DNA from: Salinibacter sp. 10B
GTDB lineage: Bacteria > Bacteroidota > Rhodothermia > Rhodothermales > Salinibacteraceae
DNA length: 64,000 nt
Direction: 5' to 3'
Assembly: GCF_002954405.1 (NCBI RefSeq)
Contig: NZ_MQWC01000004.1
Coordinates: forward strand, 136,318 to 200,317
Shown here piece by piece: positions 3,283 to 19,685 of this stretch. Position 1 is the stretch's first letter. Every line of letters begins with the position of its first letter. The notes under the pieces were generated by a model. It did no database searches. It had not been told where the DNA came from and saw nothing but the letters and a program-made list of their open reading frames with translations. Made by a program: the position numbers and the translations under genes.

Positions 3283-3613
3283 CAGGAGGGAGGGGCGGAG
3301 TCGGCTTGTCGTTCCGACGGCGCCTTTGCCCGCATTCTGCGAACGCGTTGTGCTCTATGTCGATGACATATGTTTTTCCTCCGGCCGAGAGAAAGGAAGA
3401 CCACCATCGCTCCAGGCCCTCTAGACGTTCAGAAGCGGGAAAGGGAGAGAGAAATAAGAGCGCGCGCTAACGGCCTAGGTAGATTCTAAAGGACAAAACG
3501 AAGGGGTAGCGACGACACACCCCAGTATCAGGGGCATCCCTCACGAAAGCACGGAATTTTGGTGAGGTCACGAGGTCCGTGCGGGACCTTCTGTATTCAA
3601 TCCAGATCACTAC

Positions 3614-5644: not shown

Positions 5645-8600
5645 ATGAGCCGTTACGTGCATCGATCCTTTCGTGCTGTGCCGCTCCGGGGGGCGGTGGG
5701 GTTGCTCTGCGGGTTCCTGCTGGTTGGACTCTCCGGGTGTGGGGAAACGTCCATGCTCGGACGACGCTACGACAATTTTAGCGCCTATTACAACAAGTTC
5801 CACAACGCTGAGCAGGCCTTCGAGGAGGGGGTTCAGTCCCTTGAAGAAGGGGCGCGCGAGGTCGACCGGACAGAGTATGTGTCGGTCTTTCTGAAGTCTC
5901 AGCAGAACAGGGGCGGGGGGAGCGACTCCCCGTTTGAAAAGGCCATCCAAAAGAGTGCGGACGTTCTGCGGGAGCATCCTGATTCGAAGTGGGTGGACGA
6001 TGCCCTCCTCTTGATTGGAAAGTCCTATTTTTACCAGAGCAACTACATCGGTGCCGCGCAGAAATTCCGGGAGGCCATGGCGCTGGAGACCGAACGGAGG
6101 CGCGAGGCCCGGTTTTGGCTTGCTCGGACGCTCGTCACGAATGAACAGAACACGGCGGCCGACGAGGTGATGCGTGTGGTGGAGGCGTCTGCGGGACAGC
6201 CCGATGATGAATGGACGGCGCAGTTGCACCTGGTACGCGGAGAGCTACTGGTCCAACAGGAACAGTGGACGGCAGCGGCGGAAGCGCTGCAGCGAGGATT
6301 GGCCGGAGATGTACCGGATGGCCCGGCGGCCCGGGCCGCCTTTTTGTTGGGGCAGGTGTGGGACACTCTGCAGCGGCCGCGTCCGGCACGAGCAGCGTAC
6401 CGGCACGTGCGTGAATACGACCCGTCCTACAACCTGGCCCTGGCGGCGCGTCTCAGTGAGATTGAACTACAAGGCACGCACGGCGAGCCTGATGCGGCTC
6501 TCGATCGTCTCGACGATGTGGCGTCGGACGACAAGAACTACGAACAGCGGGGGGAGATTGCGCTCGTGCGGGCCCGCATATACCGGGCGCAGGGCCGATA
6601 CGATCGGGCCCGCAAGGCACTTCGGTCGGTTCTCTACGGAGAGGAGGCGCCATCGGGGACGGCAAACGGACGCCTCCACTACGATCTCGCCACGCTGTAC
6701 CGGGATGCCTATAAAGATTTCAGCCGAGCGGCGGCGCACTTCGATACGGCTAGTACGGGGCTTCAGCGAGGCCGGAGGCAGGGCGAGGCCGAGTCTCAAC
6801 GACTGCCCCAGGCTCCTGTCGATGCCGATGAGCAAGCCACCCGTTTTCGGGACCTGGCTGAGCGAGCCCGAGAAGTCGCTCGGATGGATTCCCTGCTACG
6901 GATCGGGCGCATGGACGACGACGAATTTCAGGCCTTTGTGGCTCAGCTTCGTCGTGAACGGCAAGCGGCCCGGGAAGCGCAGGCCGAGGCACAGCAGGAG
7001 GCTGCCCAGACCCGACGATTTCAACAGCGCGGACAGGCGTTGCGCGAACAGCGGCGCAATACAACTCCTGCGGCGGACACCCGGCAGTCCGACGCCGGAT
7101 TTCTCTTTCATCAAGATCCCGCTCGGGTGCAGCAGGGACGCCAGCGGTTTCAGGAGACGTGGGGCGATCGGCCCCGGGTGGACAATTGGCGGCGTCGAAA
7201 CGCGATTCGTTCGTCCGGTCCCTCGGACGCAGTCGCTTCGTCCGCACCCGAGGCAGCCCCATCGGCCGGTGGTACGACGGCTCAAAGGGGAGACGCCTCG
7301 GTGGGGGGAGGCGGACTCGACCTTGCGGACATTCCCCGAGATTCGTCGAGCCGGGCACAGATGGAGGCAGATCGGGCCGTCGCACGTTATGAATTGGCGA
7401 ACGCCCTCTTTCTTGCGGCCGGGCGACCGGACTCGGCGGCGACCTGGTACCGGCGCATTCTTCAGAAAAACGCGGATCACCCCGTTGCAAAACGAGCCCT
7501 CTACGCGCTTGCGGAGTCCTATCGGGCTCAGGGCGATACGACGGCGGCCCAGCAAACGTATCAACGCCTCCTTGATCAGTATCCCACCACCCAGTTAGCC
7601 ACGCGGGCTCGAAAGCGTCTTGACCAGGACACCACAGAACCGGCTGATAATGGAGCTGCTGTGGCCGATACCGCTTATGCCCATGCCTACCGACAGTGGC
7701 AGAATGGACAGTGGCGGCCGGCGCTTGATAGTATGCTTGTCCTTGCGGCACGCTATCCCGAAACGAAAGCGGCGCCGCGGGCCCTGCTTGCGTCGGGAAT
7801 TATCTACTGGCGCCGCACGCAGGTCGATTCTACCCGAGCCCCTCGTTCGCTTCTTGACCGGCATGTGGAGGGACTTCTCGAACGCACTCCGGATTCCACA
7901 GTGCAGACGGTATCGGAAGGGGCAGAAACGCGCTCGTCCCGTGCACGGCCTGAGTCGGGCCGGGCGGCTCAAAATGCACGAGCGACTCCCGTTACGCCGG
8001 ATTCTCTTCGGAAGGGGGCGGTGGACTCTACCCAGACACAAGACGCAAAGCAGGCGCCGTTACAGCAACATTCTCCCCGCTCCGATTCCCTTCAACGGGC
8101 TGAGAGGGGACAGAGAGCAGGGGGAGATGCCGTTTCCGAAACCGGGAGCGTCTACACCCCGCTCAAGACGCTTCTGAATTATCTCACCCAGCAGTATGCC
8201 AATGCTCCGCAAGTCAAACGAGCACAGGTCTTGCTCTCGATGATTGGGGAGCAGCGCGCTGCTGCCGACCCCGCGCGTACAGACTCTTCGGTGGTAGACA
8301 CCACCAAGAAAGAGGCTCGGCCCGCTCCGGATTCGACGACCCTCGCATCTACACGCGCATCTACGTCAGAATCGGCAGCTGACGCAAGCCCCTCTTCCAG
8401 GACCCCACCCCCAATCGATTCGGCTGCAGTTCGTCCCCGCCCGAAGGACTCAACAGGCCACGAGCGCTCCACGTCGTCGGAGCGAGAGCCGCTCCCCGCC
8501 CCCACCGATCCGAATGCGCGAACGGCTCCTCCAGACGAGCCGGCACAGAGCACCCAATGGACTCTGCTCGTTGAGCGATTTACGGTCTCGCGGACGGCAT

Positions 8601-8797
8601 CGGCTCGGGAGGCGGAGATGAACCGAACGCTCACGGGCGATTGGGTCGTTGATCTGATACCGGGATCCGATCCGGAAAAACGGGAGTATCTTCTTGTCAT
8701 TGGTCGTTTTTCTTCGGAAGAAGAGGCGGTCAAGGCACGGGCGCAGCTTCAAGACCAGATCTCTGGCTCCTTGGAGGTATACCGACGGGTCCGGTAA
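5645..8797 (+). CDS. Very large TPR lipoprotein with C-terminal SPOR-like domain
   Basis: 1050 residues. The N-terminus is a lipoprotein signal with lipobox LSGC and predicted lipidated Cys32. Most of the protein is made of tetratricopeptide-like helices, for example around residues 95-180 (KSADVLREHPDSKWVDDAL) and 580-660 (RILQKNADHPVAKRALYALA). These are separated by long Gln/Arg- and Ser/Pro/Asp-rich linkers (about 430-560 and 740-960). The last about 75 residues, from QWTLLVERF to LEVYRRVR, resemble a SPOR domain, a fold that binds denuded peptidoglycan. The architecture recalls SprE/BamD-like envelope proteins of Bacteroidota, so a scaffold at the outer membrane or cell wall is a reasonable inference. 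It lies between pyk and ftsH and is probably monocistronic. Confidence 0.8.
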   Translation: MSRYVHRSFRAVPLRGAVGLLCGFLLVGLSGCGETSMLGRRYDNFSAYYNKFHNAEQAFEEGVQSLEEGAREVDRTEYVSVFLKSQQNRGGGSDSPFEKAIQKSADVLREHPDSKWVDDALLLIGKSYFYQSNYIGAAQKFREAMALETERRREARFWLARTLVTNEQNTAADEVMRVVEASAGQPDDEWTAQLHLVRGELLVQQEQWTAAAEALQRGLAGDVPDGPAARAAFLLGQVWDTLQRPRPARAAYRHVREYDPSYNLALAARLSEIELQGTHGEPDAALDRLDDVASDDKNYEQRGEIALVRARIYRAQGRYDRARKALRSVLYGEEAPSGTANGRLHYDLATLYRDAYKDFSRAAAHFDTASTGLQRGRRQGEAESQRLPQAPVDADEQATRFRDLAERAREVARMDSLLRIGRMDDDEFQAFVAQLRRERQAAREAQAEAQQEAAQTRRFQQRGQALREQRRNTTPAADTRQSDAGFLFHQDPARVQQGRQRFQETWGDRPRVDNWRRRNAIRSSGPSDAVASSAPEAAPSAGGTTAQRGDASVGGGGLDLADIPRDSSSRAQMEADRAVARYELANALFLAAGRPDSAATWYRRILQKNADHPVAKRALYALAESYRAQGDTTAAQQTYQRLLDQYPTTQLATRARKRLDQDTTEPADNGAAVADTAYAHAYRQWQNGQWRPALDSMLVLAARYPETKAAPRALLASGIIYWRRTQVDSTRAPRSLLDRHVEGLLERTPDSTVQTVSEGAETRSSRARPESGRAAQNARATPVTPDSLRKGAVDSTQTQDAKQAPLQQHSPRSDSLQRAERGQRAGGDAVSETGSVYTPLKTLLNYLTQQYANAPQVKRAQVLLSMIGEQRAAADPARTDSSVVDTTKKEARPAPDSTTLASTRASTSESAADASPSSRTPPPIDSAAVRPRPKDSTGHERSTSSEREPLPAPTDPNARTAPPDEPAQSTQWTLLVERFTVSRTASAREAEMNRTLTGDWVVDLIPGSDPEKREYLLVIGRFSSEEEAVKARAQLQDQISGSLEVYRRVR

Positions 8798-11373: not shown

Positions 11374-11572
11374 AATGAGAACAGACGAGAAAGGCCCCTG
11401 AGCGAAGCTGAGATGGGGTAAATTCTTTTCACTCCTTCTTCGCCGGGTGTGCGGAATCCTGTAGGGGTGTAAAGACTACCATATGTCCTGTGTGCGCAGC
11501 GAGGGGCGATCGCTGAGTGAAGATGCACGGGCACACTGCTCACTGGTTAAGTGATAACGACGATATTCTGAC

Positions 11573-11947
11573 GTGCCGACGATACAGCAACTGATTCGGA
11601 AGGGGCGAAAAACGGAAGAGAAGAAGAGTGATGCCCCTGCGCTAGAAGGGAGTCCTCAGCGGCGAGGGGTTTGCACGCGTGTGTACACAACCACGCCGAA
11701 GAAGCCGAACTCTGCGCTCCGAAAGGTTGCCCGTGTGCGCCTCACGAATGGCAATGAAGTGACGGCGTATATTCCCGGAGAGGGGCATAATCTTCAGGAG
11801 CACTCGATCGTGCTTGTGCGCGGAGGGCGTGTGAAGGACCTTCCGGGCGTCAAGTATCATATCGTTCGAGGGGCACTGGATACGGCGGGGGTGGAGGATC
11901 GCCGACAGGGCCGTTCGAAGTATGGCACGAAGAAGCCCACCGACTAG
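11573..11947 (+). CDS. rpsL: 30S ribosomal protein S12
   Basis: 124 residues, starting with GTG at 11573 (translates [12 protein letters not shown]). S12 lies at the decoding centre of the small subunit. The conserved [17 protein letters not shown] and [14 protein letters not shown] motifs carry the two lysines whose replacement gives streptomycin resistance in other bacteria, so the protein looks wild type. It is the first gene of the merged str-S10-spc-alpha cluster. A terminator-like hairpin lies between it and rpsG. Confidence 0.98.
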
Positions 11948-11958
11948 CATTGGCGATG

Positions 11959-12003
11959 AGCGCTGTGATGGGGCCGGAGTTGGCCGTTCGCCACAGCGCT
12001 TTT
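11959..12003 (+). terminator. Terminator-like hairpin between rpsL and rpsG
   Basis: AGCGCTGTG (11959-11967) pairs perfectly with CACAGCGCT (11992-12000), with GGCC/GGCC able to pair in the loop, and a short run of four T (12000-12003) follows. A second small hairpin, CCGCCC/GGGCGG, lies at 12035-12050. This could be an attenuator or partial terminator that lowers readthrough from rpsL into rpsG. Its efficiency is unknown. Confidence 0.5.
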
Positions 12004-12092
12004 CGTGTCTGGGGTTAGGGTATTGCCCAGCCCCCCGCCCAGGCGGGCGGTTCCTGTCCCATTGAGTTTTCGACGAACGACCGAACCTCACT

Positions 12093-12563
12093 ATGGCACG
12101 CGACAAGGCAGCCAAAAAGCGCACGACTCAGCCCGATCCCATGTACCGGGACGATCTCGTCTCCCGGTTCGTGAACGCCGTGATGCGGGATGGGAAAAAG
12201 AGCTTGGCCCAACGCATTGTCTACGATGCCTTTGACGTCATCGAGGAGCGAACGGGAGAGCAAGGGCTTGAGGTCTTTAAGAAGGCCGTGAACAACGTGG
12301 CTCCGCTCGTAGAGGTTCGGAGCCGCCGCGTGGGGGGAGCGACCTATCAGGTGCCGATTGAGGTGCGCCCAGACCGCCGGGTTACACTGGCCTTCCGCTG
12401 GATTATCCAGTACGCACGAGCTCGGAAAGAAAAGAGCATGTCGAACCGGCTGGCGAGTGAGCTGATCAATGCGGCCCGGGGAGAGGGTGGGGCCGTGAAG
12501 AAGAAGGACGACACACACCGGATGGCGGAGTCGAATAAGGCGTTCGCCCACTTTAGTTTCTAG
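12093..12563 (+). CDS. rpsG: 30S ribosomal protein S7
   Basis: 156 residues, the standard bacterial length. S7 nucleates assembly of the 30S head and contacts E-site tRNA. The N-terminal block (DPMYRDDLVSRFVNAVMRDG) and the VEVRSRRVGGATYQVPIEVRP core are well conserved. It follows rpsL after 145 bases containing hairpins and precedes fusA by 86 bases. Confidence 0.98.
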   Translation: MARDKAAKKRTTQPDPMYRDDLVSRFVNAVMRDGKKSLAQRIVYDAFDVIEERTGEQGLEVFKKAVNNVAPLVEVRSRRVGGATYQVPIEVRPDRRVTLAFRWIIQYARARKEKSMSNRLASELINAARGEGGAVKKKDDTHRMAESNKAFAHFSF

Positions 12564-12649
12564 AGCGCTCCCGAGAGGACTCGATGCGGTTGTTCAGGCA
12601 TATTTTGCTTGGGCACGGGCGCCCTTGAGCACGCAACCAACACACTACC

Positions 12650-14854
12650 ATGGCTACTGAGAATAACGAAGGATTTCCGCTCGAACGGACGCGTAATATC
12701 GGCATCATGGCCCATATTGATGCCGGGAAGACCACTGCGACCGAGCGTATCCTCTTTTACACCGGTCGGCTTCACCGCATGGGGGAGGTCCATGAGGGAG
12801 CCGCAACCATGGACTTCATGGAGCAGGAGAAGGAGCGGGGCATTACGATTTCCTCCGCCGCTACAACCTGCTACTGGGACGACCACCGGGTGAACATTAT
12901 CGACACCCCGGGGCACGTTGACTTTACGGTTGAGGTGGAGCGGTCGCTTCGCGTTCTGGACGGGGCCATTGCCTTGTTCTGTGCCGTTGGTGGTGTGGAG
13001 CCACAGTCCGAAACGGTGTGGCGGCAGGCCGACAAGTATAACGTTCCGCGGATCGGGTTCGTCAATAAGATGGACCGGACCGGGGCCGACTTCGAGAACG
13101 TCCTCGAGATGATGGAGGACCGCCTCAACGCCAATCCGATTCCGCTGCAGATTCCGATTGGCAGCGGCGATATGTTCCGCGGGGTCATTGACCTCATTCG
13201 GAACCAAGCCGTCGTTTGGGACGAGGAGTCCCAGGGGATGAAGTGGGACGTTCTTGAGGTCCCCGACGACCTGAAGCCGGAAGCGAAGCAGTGGCGCATC
13301 AAGCTCCTTGAAAGCGTCGCGGAGTACGACGACGAGCTTCTCATGAAGTATCTTGAGGGTGAAGAGGAGATCCAGCCCGAAGAACTGGAGGCCGTCATCC
13401 GAACGGCGACCCTCAACCGCGACATCACGCCGATGTTCTGCGGCTCGGCGCTTAAAAACAAGGGCATCCAGCGCCTGCTTGACGGCGTCATTAAGTTTCT
13501 CCCGAGCCCGAACGACGTGCCGCCGGTCACCGGCCACGATCCTGAGGAGAAGCGGAAGGTAGAGTCCGCTGCGAAAAAGGCTGCGAAAGAGGCGGCTGAA
13601 GAGGCGGACGACGATGAGGAGGTTGAGAAGCCCGAGGTAAACGAAGAGGATTACGAGGTCGTCCGGCATCCGCGCGAGGATGAGCCGTTTAGTGCCGTTG
13701 CTTTCAAGATTACCACCGACCCATACGTCGGAAAGCTTACGTTCATCCGCGTGTACAGCGGCACACTGGAGTCCGGGTCGAAGGTGTATAGCCCGACCCG
13801 CGACGAGACTGAGCGTGTTGGACGCCTTATGTTCATGCACGCCAACAGCCGTGAGGACGTGGACGTAATTCGCGCCGGCGACATTGCTGCCGTCGTGGGG
13901 CCGAAGAACCTCAAGACCGGCGATACGATCTGCGATCCTGAGCACCCGGTCGTGCTCGAGTCTATGGAGTTCCCGGAGCCGGTAATCCGGATTGCCGTGG
14001 AGCCGAAGTCGAAGGCCGACCGCGATAAGTTGATGAACGGCCTGGTGAAACTGGCCGAAGAGGACCCGACGTTCAATGTCTCGACCGATGAGGAGACGGG
14101 GCAGACGATTATTGCCGGGATGGGGGAGCTCCACCTGGAAATCATTGTTGATCGTCTCCGACGAGAGTTCAAGGTGGAGGCCAATGTTGGACAGCCGCAG
14201 GTTGCTTATCGCGAGGCCATTACACGCACTGTGGACGAGCACTACGTTCTCAAGAAGCAGTCCGGCGGTCGGGGACAGTTCGCCGAGGTGTACATGGAGG
14301 TCGGCCCGAGCGAGGAAGGCAAGGGACTTGAGTTTGAGAATGAAATCAAGGGCGGGGTTATCCCGAAAGAGTTCATTCCGTCGGTTGAGCGTGGAATCGA
14401 GAGTGCGATGGAGGACGGCCCGATTGCGGGATACCCGATCGAGGGCGTCAAGATTCGGCTCTACGATGGGGATCACCACGAGGTGGACTCCGACCAGAAT
14501 GCCTTTGAGATTGCAGGCCGCCTCGGGTTCCGCGAAGCCGCTCGGAACGCCGATCCAGTGCTCATGGAGCCGGTCATGGATGTTGAAGTGATTACGCCAG
14601 AAGAGTACATGGGCGATATCATCGGGGATCTTAACAGCCGCCGTGGCCGCATTGGGAAGATGGGGCAGCGCAACGACGCGCAGGTCATTAACGCTGAGGT
14701 CCCACTTTCCGAGATGTTCGGCTACTCGACCGATCTCCGGTCGATCTCGCAGGGGCGAGCCATCTACACGATGCAGTTCGAGACCTACGAGCCTGTCCCC
14801 GATGACATCGCAAAAGAGATCCTCGACGAAGACACGGTCGGAGCCGCAGCGTAG
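12650..14854 (+). CDS. fusA: Translation elongation factor G
   Basis: 734 residues. This GTPase drives tRNA-mRNA translocation. The G1 loop AHIDAGKTT, switch [10 protein letters not shown] and NKMD base-recognition motif are intact, and domains II-V follow. It is longer than E. coli EF-G (704 residues) because a Lys/Ala- then Glu/Asp-rich segment of about 30 extra residues (around 300-343) is inserted at the end of the G domain, just before [10 protein letters not shown]. Such acidic padding fits a protein adapted to high internal salt, but its effect is unknown. It is 86 bases after rpsG and 74 before tuf. Confidence 0.98.
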
Positions 14855-14928
14855 ACCCTGTCCTCATGGGGGAGGATATCCAGTCTGCCAATTTTCGAAA
14901 TTCCAGCCACTGACTAACGCATAGCACC

Positions 14929-16119
<1,191 letters not shown>

Positions 16120-16202
16120 ACGCGAGACGAGTTGCGAAGGGCGAGTGCCGAATGAATCGATTCGGCATTCGAAGCTCGAAATTCGGAAATTGATACTGAG
16201 AC
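16120..16202. repeat. TTCGAA-rich spacer element between tuf and rpsJ
   Basis: The spacer holds a perfect hairpin, TGCCGAAT/ATTCGGCA at 16146-16167. It then runs CATTCGAAGCTCGAAATTCG almost to the rpsJ start. The same kind of sequence precedes the pdhC start (63134-63169), and a related one precedes pdhB (62062-62095). I read these as members of one dispersed intergenic element family that ends at start codons. Confidence 0.45.
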
Positions 16203-16514
16203 ATGGCCACGCAGCAGAAGATTCGAATTAAGCTGAAATCGTACGACCACTCCCTGATCGATAAGAGTGCGGAGAAAATTATCCGCACGGTAAAGTCGAC
16301 GGGAGCGGTAGTGAGTGGACCTGTTCCTCTCCCGACCGAGAAAAAGGTGTACACAGTGCTGCGCGGCCCCCACGTGGATAAAAAGAGCCGCGAGCAGTTT
16401 GAGCGCCGCCACCACAAGCGTTTGATCGACATTCTCTCGTCGAGCAGTGACACGGTGGATGCGCTGATGCAGCTTGAGTTGCCGAGCGGAGTGGATGTTG
16501 AGATCAAGGTTTAA
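16203..16514 (+). CDS. rpsJ: 30S ribosomal protein S10
   Basis: 103 residues. S10 sits in the 30S head and is also the NusE transcription factor in antitermination complexes. [20 protein letters not shown] and the [20 protein letters not shown] block are canonical. Its stop is only two bases before the start of a lipoprotein gene, where rplC would be expected, which suggests translational coupling between the two. Confidence 0.98.
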
Positions 16515-16516
16515 TC

Positions 16517-16999
16517 ATGCTTCGCCGGCGCTTTCCTCCGGCCCTGGTACTTTTGCTGGTTGTTGGGCTCGCCACACAGGTGAGCGGGTGCGATTCCGGC
16601 GCGTCGAAGCGAGCGTTCCAGTACAGCAGCCTGGTCGGAACGTGGCGGATCCAGCGGGTGGACGTGACAGGTATTTTGCGCGACACGGTCCGGCTTGAAT
16701 TTCTGCCGGAAGGAGACAGCGGGCGGGCGTATCGCTTGCTTCGGCCCGTGCGAGAGGATCCGGTTGTGGGGAGAGGACGGGTGGACATACCGACTGTCGG
16801 CGTTTTGCGCATGACGGACGGCTTTGCTCGCCCACTTTTGTGGACGTTTAATTTTGATCGACCGAACGGTTCGAGGACGAGTGTTCGCTTCGTTCTGCAG
16901 GAACGATGGAACGGAGACGCTCAAGCCTTCTTGAACAGAATCGGTCTGCCCGGCAACGCTCGCGGGATTGAGATGGATCTCATTCGTGAGCGAGACTAG
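16517..16999 (+). CDS. Small lipoprotein with lipocalin-like motif, inside the S10 operon
   Basis: 160 residues. The N-terminus has three Arg, a hydrophobic core and lipobox VSGC with predicted lipidated Cys25, so the mature protein should be anchored in the cell envelope. The region after the anchor (SLVGTWRIQRVDVTG and following strands) resembles the start of lipocalin-like domains, which open with a G-x-W strand, but I cannot name a family firmly. Its place is odd. It begins two bases after rpsJ and ends 38 bases before rplC, splitting a pair that is adjacent in nearly all bacteria. The same strand and tight coupling imply co-transcription with ribosomal proteins. Its function is unknown. 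Confidence 0.8.
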   Translation: MLRRRFPPALVLLLVVGLATQVSGCDSGASKRAFQYSSLVGTWRIQRVDVTGILRDTVRLEFLPEGDSGRAYRLLRPVREDPVVGRGRVDIPTVGVLRMTDGFARPLLWTFNFDRPNGSRTSVRFVLQERWNGDAQAFLNRIGLPGNARGIEMDLIRERD

Positions 17000-17037
17000 C
17001 CGTTTTGAACTGACAATTTTTGCAAGACCTCATCGCC

Positions 17038-17682
17038 ATGAGTAGCGGACTGATCGGAAAAAAGGTGGGAATGACGAGCGTCTTTGATGACGACGGCAAC
17101 AACGTTGCCTGCACAGTCATCGAGGCCGGCCCGAACGTCGTGACCCAGGTGAAGCAAGAAGAGGGTCCGGACGGCTATGACGCCGTGCAACTCGCCTTCG
17201 ACAACAAGAAGGAGAAGAACACGACGAAGGCCATGCAAGGGCACTTTGCTGAGGCCGACTCGCCCCCAAAGCAGGTCGTGAAGGAGTTTCGCGACTTCGG
17301 CGAGGACGTACAGCAGGGCGACGTTGTGCGAGTGGAGGACCTTTTTGAGGAGGGTGAGACCGTGGATGTCGTGGGAGTATCGAAGGGGAAAGGATTCCAG
17401 GGCGTTGTGAAGCGCCACGGATTTAGTGGGGTAGGCATGACGACACACGGCCAGTCCGACCGTCAGCGCCACCCGGGCTCCATTGGGGCCTCCGCTGATC
17501 CCTCCCGCGTGTTTAAAGGACTACGGATGGCCGGGCAAACCGGAGGGGAGCGAACCAAGATTCAAAATCTGACGGTGGTTCGAATCCTTCCGGACCACGA
17601 CGCCATCCTCATTAAGGGCTCCGTTCCGGGTCCCAAAAGCGGATACGTCGAACTCTACAAGAAGACCGACGCTGGCGCATAG
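17038..17682 (+). CDS. rplC: 50S ribosomal protein L3
   Basis: 214 residues from ATG 17038. An in-frame TTG at 17020 would add six residues but does not match the family start [17 protein letters not shown]3 is an early-assembling protein whose loop approaches the peptidyl-transferase centre. The conserved [14 protein letters not shown] and [18 protein letters not shown] motifs are present. It lies 38 bases after the embedded lipoprotein gene. Confidence 0.98.
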
Positions 17683-17765
17683 ACGTTACGAACCGCATGG
17701 GGCGTGACCGGTACGTTCCGGTCGCCGCTTCCCGAGCGACTGTGAATCTCTGACCCGATAGGATT

Positions 17766-18410
17766 ATGGATGTCGACATTTATCAAAACGATGGCGTGAG
17801 CTCCGGCCGCACGGCGACCCTTGTGCCAACGGTGTTTGACGTGGAGCCGAACAATCACGTCATCTGGTTGGACGTGAAGCGGATCCAAGCCCATGAGCGA
17901 CAGGGCACGAGCAAGACCCAGGAGCGTTCTGAGGTGACCGGCTCAACCCGAAAGCTTTACCGGCAGAAGGGGACCGGAAATGCTCGCGTTGGTGACGCCA
18001 AGTCCCCGATTCGCCGCGATGGAGGTAGGGCTCACGGCGCTCGTCCGCGTAGCTACGACCACAACCTGAATCTGAAGGAGAAGCGCCTTGCTCGACGCTC
18101 GGCCCTCTCCTATAAGGCCGAAAGCGATTCGGTGCGGGTGGTCGAAGACTACTCTATGGACCGTCCGAGCACTCGAGAGCTGACCGATCTCCTCGATCTC
18201 ATGGAGATTGGAGACGAAAAAGTTCTGTTCGCCACAACGGAGGTAGAAAAAGAAATCTACCATAGCGCACAGAACTTGTCGAAGGTGAACGTTCGGGAAG
18301 TGCAGAGCGTCAACACCGTTGATATTCTCGATGCGGACGTGGTGGTTTTTCAGGAAGGAGCGCTCGACTGGATGACCCAGGTCCTCGCTCCCGATCCCGT
18401 TCACGCGTAA
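17766..18410 (+). CDS. rplD: 50S ribosomal protein L4
   Basis: 214 residues. L4 lines the peptide exit tunnel, and in E. coli it represses its own operon. The tunnel loop segment (TGSTRKLYRQKGTGNARVGD) and the GGRAHGARPRSYDH motif are conserved. The surface half is acidic. It is separated from rplC by 83 bases and from rplW by 45. Confidence 0.97.
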   Translation: MDVDIYQNDGVSSGRTATLVPTVFDVEPNNHVIWLDVKRIQAHERQGTSKTQERSEVTGSTRKLYRQKGTGNARVGDAKSPIRRDGGRAHGARPRSYDHNLNLKEKRLARRSALSYKAESDSVRVVEDYSMDRPSTRELTDLLDLMEIGDEKVLFATTEVEKEIYHSAQNLSKVNVREVQSVNTVDILDADVVVFQEGALDWMTQVLAPDPVHA

Positions 18411-18455
18411 CTTCGTGTCCGGAGGGAACTCGAATTCTTAGATTGTTGCTGAGCT

Positions 18456-18755
18456 ATGAGTAAACGCGTTCTCATTCGTCCCTACGTGACTGAGAAGACA
18501 ACTTATCAGATGGAGGAGGGGAAGTACTCCTTTATCTGTGGGCTTGATGCCTCGAAGCCCGAAATCCGACAGGCCATTGAGGAGCGATATCCGGGGGTCG
18601 ACGTCGCTAAGGTTCGCACTCAGGTCGTTCCGGGCAAGCGCCGTCGACAGTTCCGACAGGGGAACATGATCGAGGGACGAACCTCGGGCTTTAAGAAGGC
18701 CATCGTAGAGCTTGACCCCGATGGTGAACAGATCGACTTCTTTGAGGGAATTTAG
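18456..18755 (+). CDS. rplW: 50S ribosomal protein L23
   Basis: 99 residues. L23 borders the tunnel exit and is the docking site for trigger factor and SRP. The RPYVTEKTTYQMEEGKYSF start and the GRRRQFRQG-like basic segment (PGKRRRQFRQGNMIEG) identify it. It shows a normal length and no anomalies. Confidence 0.96.
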   Translation: MSKRVLIRPYVTEKTTYQMEEGKYSFICGLDASKPEIRQAIEERYPGVDVAKVRTQVVPGKRRRQFRQGNMIEGRTSGFKKAIVELDPDGEQIDFFEGI

Positions 18756-18833
18756 ACGCAGACTGGACTGCTCGCAACCCCTTTTCATCCTTGACGGTGG
18801 GCACTGCGCACTGTCAGAAATCCGTTTTCTGCT

Positions 18834-19685
18834 ATGGCGATTAAGAAGCGAAAGCCGACGATCAACAGTCAGCGCCAGTACTCGGTTGACGACAAGGAAG
18901 ATGTGACGTCGACCGAGCCGGAGCGAAGCCTCCTGGAGGCAATGTCCAATAGTGGAGGCCGCAACAACCAGGGGCGCATGACGATGCGCTACCGGGGCGG
19001 TGGTCATAAGCGTCGTTACCGCAAGATTGACTTCAAGCGGAACGACAAGGATGGCATTCCTGCTCGGGTGGCGACAATCGAGTACGACCCCAACCGGTCG
19101 GCTCGGATCTCTCTCCTCGTCTACGCCGACGGTGAGAAGCGTTACATCGTTGCTCCCGATGGGATTGAAGTGGGGCAAACGGTGATGAGTGGACCTCAGG
19201 CAACCGCAGATACCGGTAACTGCCTTCCGCTTACGAATATCCCGCTCGGAACGCGCGTGCACTGCATCGAGATGCGACCGGGCAAGGGGGCACAGTTGGC
19301 CCGTGCGGCGGGGACGCATGCCCAGCTTACAGCTCGCGAAGGAGACTATGCGACGCTTGAGCTGCCGAGTGGAGAGACCCGCCTGGTACCGTCGAAATGC
19401 CGAGCCACGGTAGGCGTTACGAGCAACGTGGAGCACTTCAACATAGAAATTGGAAAGGCGGGGCGAAGCCGCTGGCTCGGGCGTCGACCTCGAACCCGAG
19501 GAGTTGCCATGAACCCGATCGACCACCCAATGGGCGGTGGAGAGGGACGTGCATCGGGGGGGCACCCGCGTTCCCGGAAGGGAGTCCCGGCGAAAGGGTA
19601 CAAGACTCGGACGCGTAATAAGGACTCGAATAAGTACATTATTCGCCGTCGCACCGAGTCGAAGAGCCGGAAGAAATCAAAGTAA
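18834..19685 (+). CDS. rplB: 50S ribosomal protein L2
   Basis: 283 residues. L2 is needed for subunit association and peptidyl transfer. The C-terminal [18 protein letters not shown] keeps the functional His of DHP (His229 of E. coli) but has Met where many bacteria have a second His. The basic tail KSRKKSK is typical. It lies 78 bases after rplW. Confidence 0.98.

Follow-up and report, generated by a model that had tools for sequence, protein, structure and literature searches.

To our knowledge, the rpsJ-rplC junction is commonly regarded as nearly fixed. The closest described systems are found among lipoproteins of Bacteroidetes, whose surface export signal (LES) is given in the accessible parts of two reports as an acidic run just after the Cys residue (PMC5080379; PMC6222051), and in the genome evolution of Salinibacter ruber. 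In the recombined core regions of this species envelope genes are enriched and genes for ribosomal structure are under-represented, according to the accessible part of that study (PMC6060240). Among the titles of the literature matches listed, in a coverage that left most subscription papers and preprints outside, there was no earlier report of a lipoprotein between rpsJ and rplC. The locus described here is made of parts of known kinds; their combination appears to be new.

We analysed a window of 64,000 nt (the whole stretch of DNA under study, from Salinibacter sp. 10B). On its plus strand the order is rpsL-rpsG-fusA-tuf-rpsJ-lipoprotein gene-rplC-rplD, continuing onward; rpsL, rpsG, fusA, tuf and rplD are presumed identities, recognised from the ORF translations. 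The ORF at 16517-16999, as read in the window and its ORF list, is a real gene of 160 aa. The rpsJ stop codon TAA ends at 16514 and is followed by two bases (TC) and the ATG of the lipoprotein gene at 16517. Its own stop codon TAG ends at 16999, and after 38 bases rplC starts with ATG at 17038. This placement between S10 and L3, on which the original prediction was built, was borne out in its coordinates, and both flanking genes were confirmed by NCBIfam models. The features are as follows, A1 being the protein alignment described below.

14929-16119, plus strand: tuf, an ORF that precedes rpsJ in 13/14 loci
16203-16514, plus strand: rpsJ, ribosomal protein S10, upstream partner (NCBIfam TIGR01049, equivalog, 150.8 bits vs. 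cut-off 72.75)
16517-16999, plus strand: lipoprotein gene, 160 aa, of the lipocalin-like family of the S10 operon (sequence, same-site homologues, alignment A1)
16517-16588, plus strand: predicted lipoprotein signal peptide, 24 residues, ending in VSG (sequence; Cys follows in 58/58 aligned members)
16589-16591, plus strand: codon of Cys25, predicted lipid attachment, with Asp at +2 (Cys invariant in 58/58, Asp in 57/60)
16592-16996, plus strand: mature domain, fast evolving (in the genome pair G003/G010 the divergence lies in the corresponding block)
16637-16645, plus strand: G41-T-W43, lipocalin-type GxW start of the mature domain (58/58 members have this G and W)
17000-17037, plus strand: 38-nt spacer before rplC (no promoter-like site and no plus-strand terminator-like site)
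17038-17682, plus strand: rplC, ribosomal protein L3, downstream partner (NCBIfam TIGR03625, equivalog, 252.7 bits vs. cut-off 142.9)
17766-18410, plus strand: rplD (L4), the operon's next gene, an ORF that follows rplC in 14/14 loci

The host genome holds one match to the lipoprotein by sequence (10/10 candidates scored); a profile search at E≤0.001 likewise gave one (among 32 of 113 candidates scored). In a first survey of 60 genomes, comprising the host and its relatives, 14 had a match, and all 14 loci lay between rpsJ and rplC. The survey was extended to the order Rhodothermales, where rplC was found in 102/114 genomes and 100 places were surveyed, G031 and G113 being omitted. The rpsJ-rplC interval was readable in 98 genomes (rpsJ is absent from the contig in G019 and G075), and 59 of these carry a lipoprotein gene at the same site, one per interval; a genome was scored as present if the interval exceeded 450 nt and contained an ORF. 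Occupied intervals span 494-687 nt, and empty gaps of 5-108 nt were seen in 38 genomes. The remaining genome, G036, has a gap of 260 nt in which no remnant of the lipoprotein gene was recognisable; it was counted neither as present nor as empty and was labelled absent when presence was mapped on the species tree. Two genomes outside the 59 also have the gene, G113 on a later reading (L231) and G075 just upstream of rplC at the contig end. In G013 two contigs carry rplC (C500 and C18; L030 and L232), with identities of 78% and 69% to the window. The gap is empty on the first, which was counted, and holds the gene on the second (L045/L232); this bin may be mixed.

Ten of 14 families of the order have the gene. 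Present among readable genomes were 21/26 in the host family f1, 4/4 in f2, 3/3 in f4, 14/18 in f5, 1/1 in f7, 3/3 in f9, 3/3 in f10, 2/2 in f12, 3/9 in f13 and 5/5 in f14, and none in f3 (0/7), f8 (0/1), f11 (0/1) and f15 (0/15). The original prediction had proposed a search of related genomes for the same insertion and had named absence from close relatives with a transposon scar as a result that would speak against it; the shared site in 59/98 genomes of the order and the presence of the gene in 13/13 genomes of the host genus speak in its favour. In the sister order (rplC in 41/59 genomes, 30 loci read) none of the 29 loci with rpsJ has the gene, and the gaps are all 10-23 nt. Named Bacteroidota controls comprised 79 loci, 63 of them with rpsJ upstream (including L046, a Rhodothermales bin); by the same script, which asked for an ORF of at least 70 aa ending more than 150 nt past the rpsJ stop, 0/63 showed one. 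A class-wide profile search with at most 14 candidates scored per genome gave matches at E≤1e-8 in 72/244 genomes. Five of these lie outside the order, and their matches are weak (best 1.3e-12) and cover about the first two thirds of the profile.

As an observation apart, 16 of the 79 named loci (L048, L052, L054, L056, L057, L096, L111 and nine more) showed no rpsJ in the DNA retrieved upstream of rplC, five Pedobacter and two Sphingobacterium loci among them. Some of these are short of upstream DNA (30 nt in L082), so a location of S10 elsewhere perhaps applies to only part of the 16.

In a tree of 60 lipoprotein sequences the taxonomic families cohere, with 11 label changes (minimum 10, shuffled mean 35.5); f5 and f2 are untidy and branches are long. 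A tree of S10, L3 and L4 from 98 genomes and eight of the sister order, built with a quick method and a short search and weakly supported at its base, needs nine changes to explain presence of the gene (shuffled mean 34.8), seven of which are forced by starred branches. With the sister order as outgroup f14 and f9, both with the gene, branch near the base, so these trees are most simply explained by one early gain in the order and vertical inheritance with about eight losses. dN/dS was 0.03-0.51 in 18 of 19 lipoprotein pairs, the 19th being saturated, and among the unsaturated pairs no overall value exceeded 1. A recent insertion is ruled out by distribution and trees, and so is a chance ORF, since same-site relatives occur in 59/98 genomes, Cys25, Gly41 and Trp43 are invariant and dN/dS ranges from 0.03 to 0.51. 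The arrangement is genuine and old, and selection acts on it. That the sequence would act mainly at the RNA level, spacing or regulating translation of rplC with an incidental protein, might be suspected from the clustering of occupied intervals at 494-687 nt. Purifying selection at the codon level and the invariant residues speak against such a role, as does the lack of any Rfam match at E≤1 in 11400-19000, and we regard it as very improbable.

Alignment A1 comprises 58 sequences, the near-copies L019 and L169 being omitted, and has a mean column identity of 21%. Cys25, Gly41 and Trp43 are invariant (C..GxW, 58/58), and Asp26 and Gly87 are conserved in at least 90%. The lipoprotein call of the original prediction, made from the lipobox VSGC and Cys25 of the window protein, and its lipocalin-like GxW start are supported by these residues. 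Lipocalin_4 (Pfam PF13648) is matched by 16/58 members at E≤0.01 (best 7.2e-6). When ten members were re-scanned, six matched at E≤0.05 from profile position 1 or 2 to 70-89 of 89, and one of the ten (L181, 26.1 bits) exceeded the gathering cut-off of 22.4 bits. TIGR03066 (Gem_osc_para_1, NCBIfam) is matched by 27/58 at E≤0.01 (best 9.9e-8), and DUF5004 (Pfam PF16395) by 4/58 (E≤0.01, best 3.5e-4), with two re-scanned matching members under the cut-off (21.0 and 18.9 vs. 21.6). The window protein matches neither Lipocalin_4 nor TIGR03066: it has no Pfam family at E≤0.01, stays below the Lipocalin_4 cut-off, hits only DUF6287 (0.17) at E≤1, and has no NCBIfam family at E≤1. We call it lipocalin-like and not a Lipocalin_4 member.

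AlphaFold models made from two-row alignments were poor (pLDDT 41.0 and 58.5), the model with 58.5, that of a relative, having eight strands and two helices. Fold searches with these poor models gave weak matches (Foldseek best E 8.5e-3, VIA best Z 7.0), with no lipocalin title among those listed, and a profile search of the PDB was not significant (best E 0.12, BFA1). Naming a fold from the structure models was rejected because they are too poor.

Asp directly follows Cys in 57/60 sequences. Outside the host family, many members have acidic residues right behind Cys, as do the LES lipoproteins in the parts of PMC5080379 and PMC6222051 that are accessible; the number of Asp or Glu in the eight residues after Cys averages 3.69 in 39 sequences outside f1 and 1.81 in 21 of f1. 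LES as described in those parts differs in having Ser at +2, where the lipoprotein family has Asp, often with Ser at +3. The acidic run is not universal outside the host family, since L178 and L189 have the +2 Asp only. The host genus lacks an acidic stretch; the window protein reads C-D-S-G-A-S-K-R and contains one acidic residue in +2 to +9, which falls short of the acidic run of LES.

Relatives of the lipoprotein also occur outside the S10 operon. G057 and G085, both f13 genomes with an empty gap, each have a relative of full length at another place (95.3 and 89.9 bits; L225 2998-3474 and the ORF of L226 ending at 3462), which is either the moved gene or a paralogue. In G057 it sits directly before a TonB-dependent receptor gene (TonB_dep_Rec_b-barrel, 8.2e-42) and has genes with a metallo-beta-lactamase fold and for a short-chain dehydrogenase upstream, and G085 has ORFs resembling these two upstream genes. 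Lipocalin-like folds often bind small molecules. The lipoprotein could accordingly be an accessory of a TonB-dependent receptor that binds a nutrient, growth-linked expression matching uptake to ribosome number. The G057 and G085 neighbourhoods fit this reading, but the association was seen in one genus only and no receptor gene lies beside the S10-operon copy in the window; we consider it improbable. Further copies were detected in G032, G005, G041 and G031 by a profile search with up to 32 candidates scored per genome; the second copy of G032, outside the operon, lies above the Lipocalin_4 gathering score. Weak profile matches in G020, G024 and G026 (g9 of f1), G087, G033 and G097 were rejected as moved copies because the sequences look, by judgement and not by tree, like other lipocalin-like lipoproteins. 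In G031 (f6) a family member at L230 1986-2465 lies directly upstream of an ORF recognised by eye as YajC-like.

A block of divergence was found between G003 and G010. In this pair 18 flanking genes have dS values of 0.06-0.19 and dN up to 0.018, whereas the lipoprotein gene has a dS of 0.85 and a dN of 0.377. In blocks of 30 columns identity is 87-100% over rpsJ and roughly the initial 110 nt of the lipoprotein gene, drops to 33-70% over the following 420 columns, and is 93-100% beyond them and into rplC. Splitting the gene eight residues after Cys gave a dS of 0.17 for the anchor and 1.37 for the mature part (flank 0.07). The corresponding values were 0.15 and 1.70 (flank 0.45) for G003/G004, and 0.38 and 2.13 (flank 0.44) for G010/G004; dS values above 1 are rough, and those of the anchor are noisy since it has 26-44 codons. 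The anchor is the more divergent part in several pairs, e.g. G014/G021, G049/G058 and G107/G109. Among 23 pairs, the ratio of whole-gene dS to flank dS singles out G003/G010 alone (11.6), with 0.7-3.0 in the remaining 22; it is also the only elevated one among eight pairs with a flank dS below 0.4. Saturation alone is an unlikely cause of this spike, because the DNA on either side is near-identical. We read the pattern as pointing to replacement of the mature domain, or to alleles long kept, in one clade, with one clear case.

As far as the accessible part of PMC6060240 goes, the enrichment of envelope genes in recombined regions of S. ruber is a parallel, but the variable gene of the present locus belongs to a ribosomal operon. 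A divergent block amid near-identical ribosomal genes would be a marked case of envelope allele exchange at a highly conserved locus. Taken further, the S10 operon might house a growth-linked, diversifying surface receptor, with the near-invariant rpsJ and rplC as homology arms for swapping its outer domain between lineages, and each growing cell would display the allele it currently has in an amount that follows its ribosome number. We put this forward as a tentative idea that is unlikely to hold.

The original prediction had also proposed that the lipoprotein is probably translationally coupled to S10. Starts were picked by a script as the lipobox-bearing start nearest to the rpsJ stop, a rule that favours overlap; with it, 12 of 13 congeners have a start that overlaps the rpsJ stop, eight of them as GTGA at -4, the window being the exception with its start at +2. 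Outside the host family, 18 of 38 loci have their chosen start 19-88 nt past the rpsJ stop. Thus, coupling to S10 is plausible within the genus, where it is suggested by the overlapping start and stop codons, but tight coupling is not order-wide. In 16100-17800 we found no promoter-like site and no plus-strand terminator-like site, and one minus-strand terminator-like site, no more than shuffled sequences give; such scans say little in this phylum. At 0.025 per codon, the codon usage of the lipoprotein gene lies within the span of the ribosomal genes (-0.022 to 0.067), and each of the 13 background genes scores lower (-0.055 to 0.000). The test is weak because 6 of 21 ribosomal and elongation-factor genes score below zero.

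A link between envelope and ribosomes is not obligatory, as gene losses and the relatives outside the operon show. These observations also bear on the view that a lipocalin-like lipoprotein gene of an ordinary kind came to lie in an operon with strong expression and stayed there, its place meaning nothing for growth. Such a passenger would account for the empty gaps of 5-108 nt in 38/98 genomes, the about eight losses on the tree, the fast divergence of the protein (21% mean column identity) and the relatives elsewhere in genomes. It is harder to reconcile with purifying selection (dN/dS 0.03-0.51), retention in ten families and the start-stop overlap in 12/13 congeners, and we consider it rather doubtful, if deserving of serious attention.

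The sequence data are best read as pointing to an outer-membrane lipoprotein that is lipocalin-like and produced from the S10 operon. The comparisons support an entry of the gene into the rpsJ-rplC gap early in the order and its vertical inheritance at this site under purifying selection, with several losses. Its transcription would be shared with the S10 operon, and in the host family ribosomes that have just completed S10 would translate it, so that the supply of lipoprotein would follow ribosome production. The product would be lipidated at Cys25 and placed in the outer membrane, where a lipocalin-like beta-barrel may meet the outside or bind a ligand. In the host genus, in the clade of G003, G004 and G010, the anchor appears conserved and the mature domain far more divergent; between G003 and G010 the latter looks as if it had been exchanged in one block, with near-identical ribosomal arms on both sides, as would be expected of a surface part pressed by phages, predators or changing ligands. 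To this explanation as a whole, from early entry and vertical inheritance through S10-linked supply and an outer-membrane barrel to replacement of the mature domain, we assign a probability of roughly 0.5. The idea of a link to growth contained in it is a fair hypothesis that has now become testable; with an envelope lipoprotein kept across ten families, a tie of the envelope to ribosome synthesis can be addressed directly.

The window contains a further lipoprotein at 5645-8797, of 1050 aa, which matches NCBIfam NF052312 (type IX secretion PorW/SprE) with 316.6 vs. a cut-off of 250.
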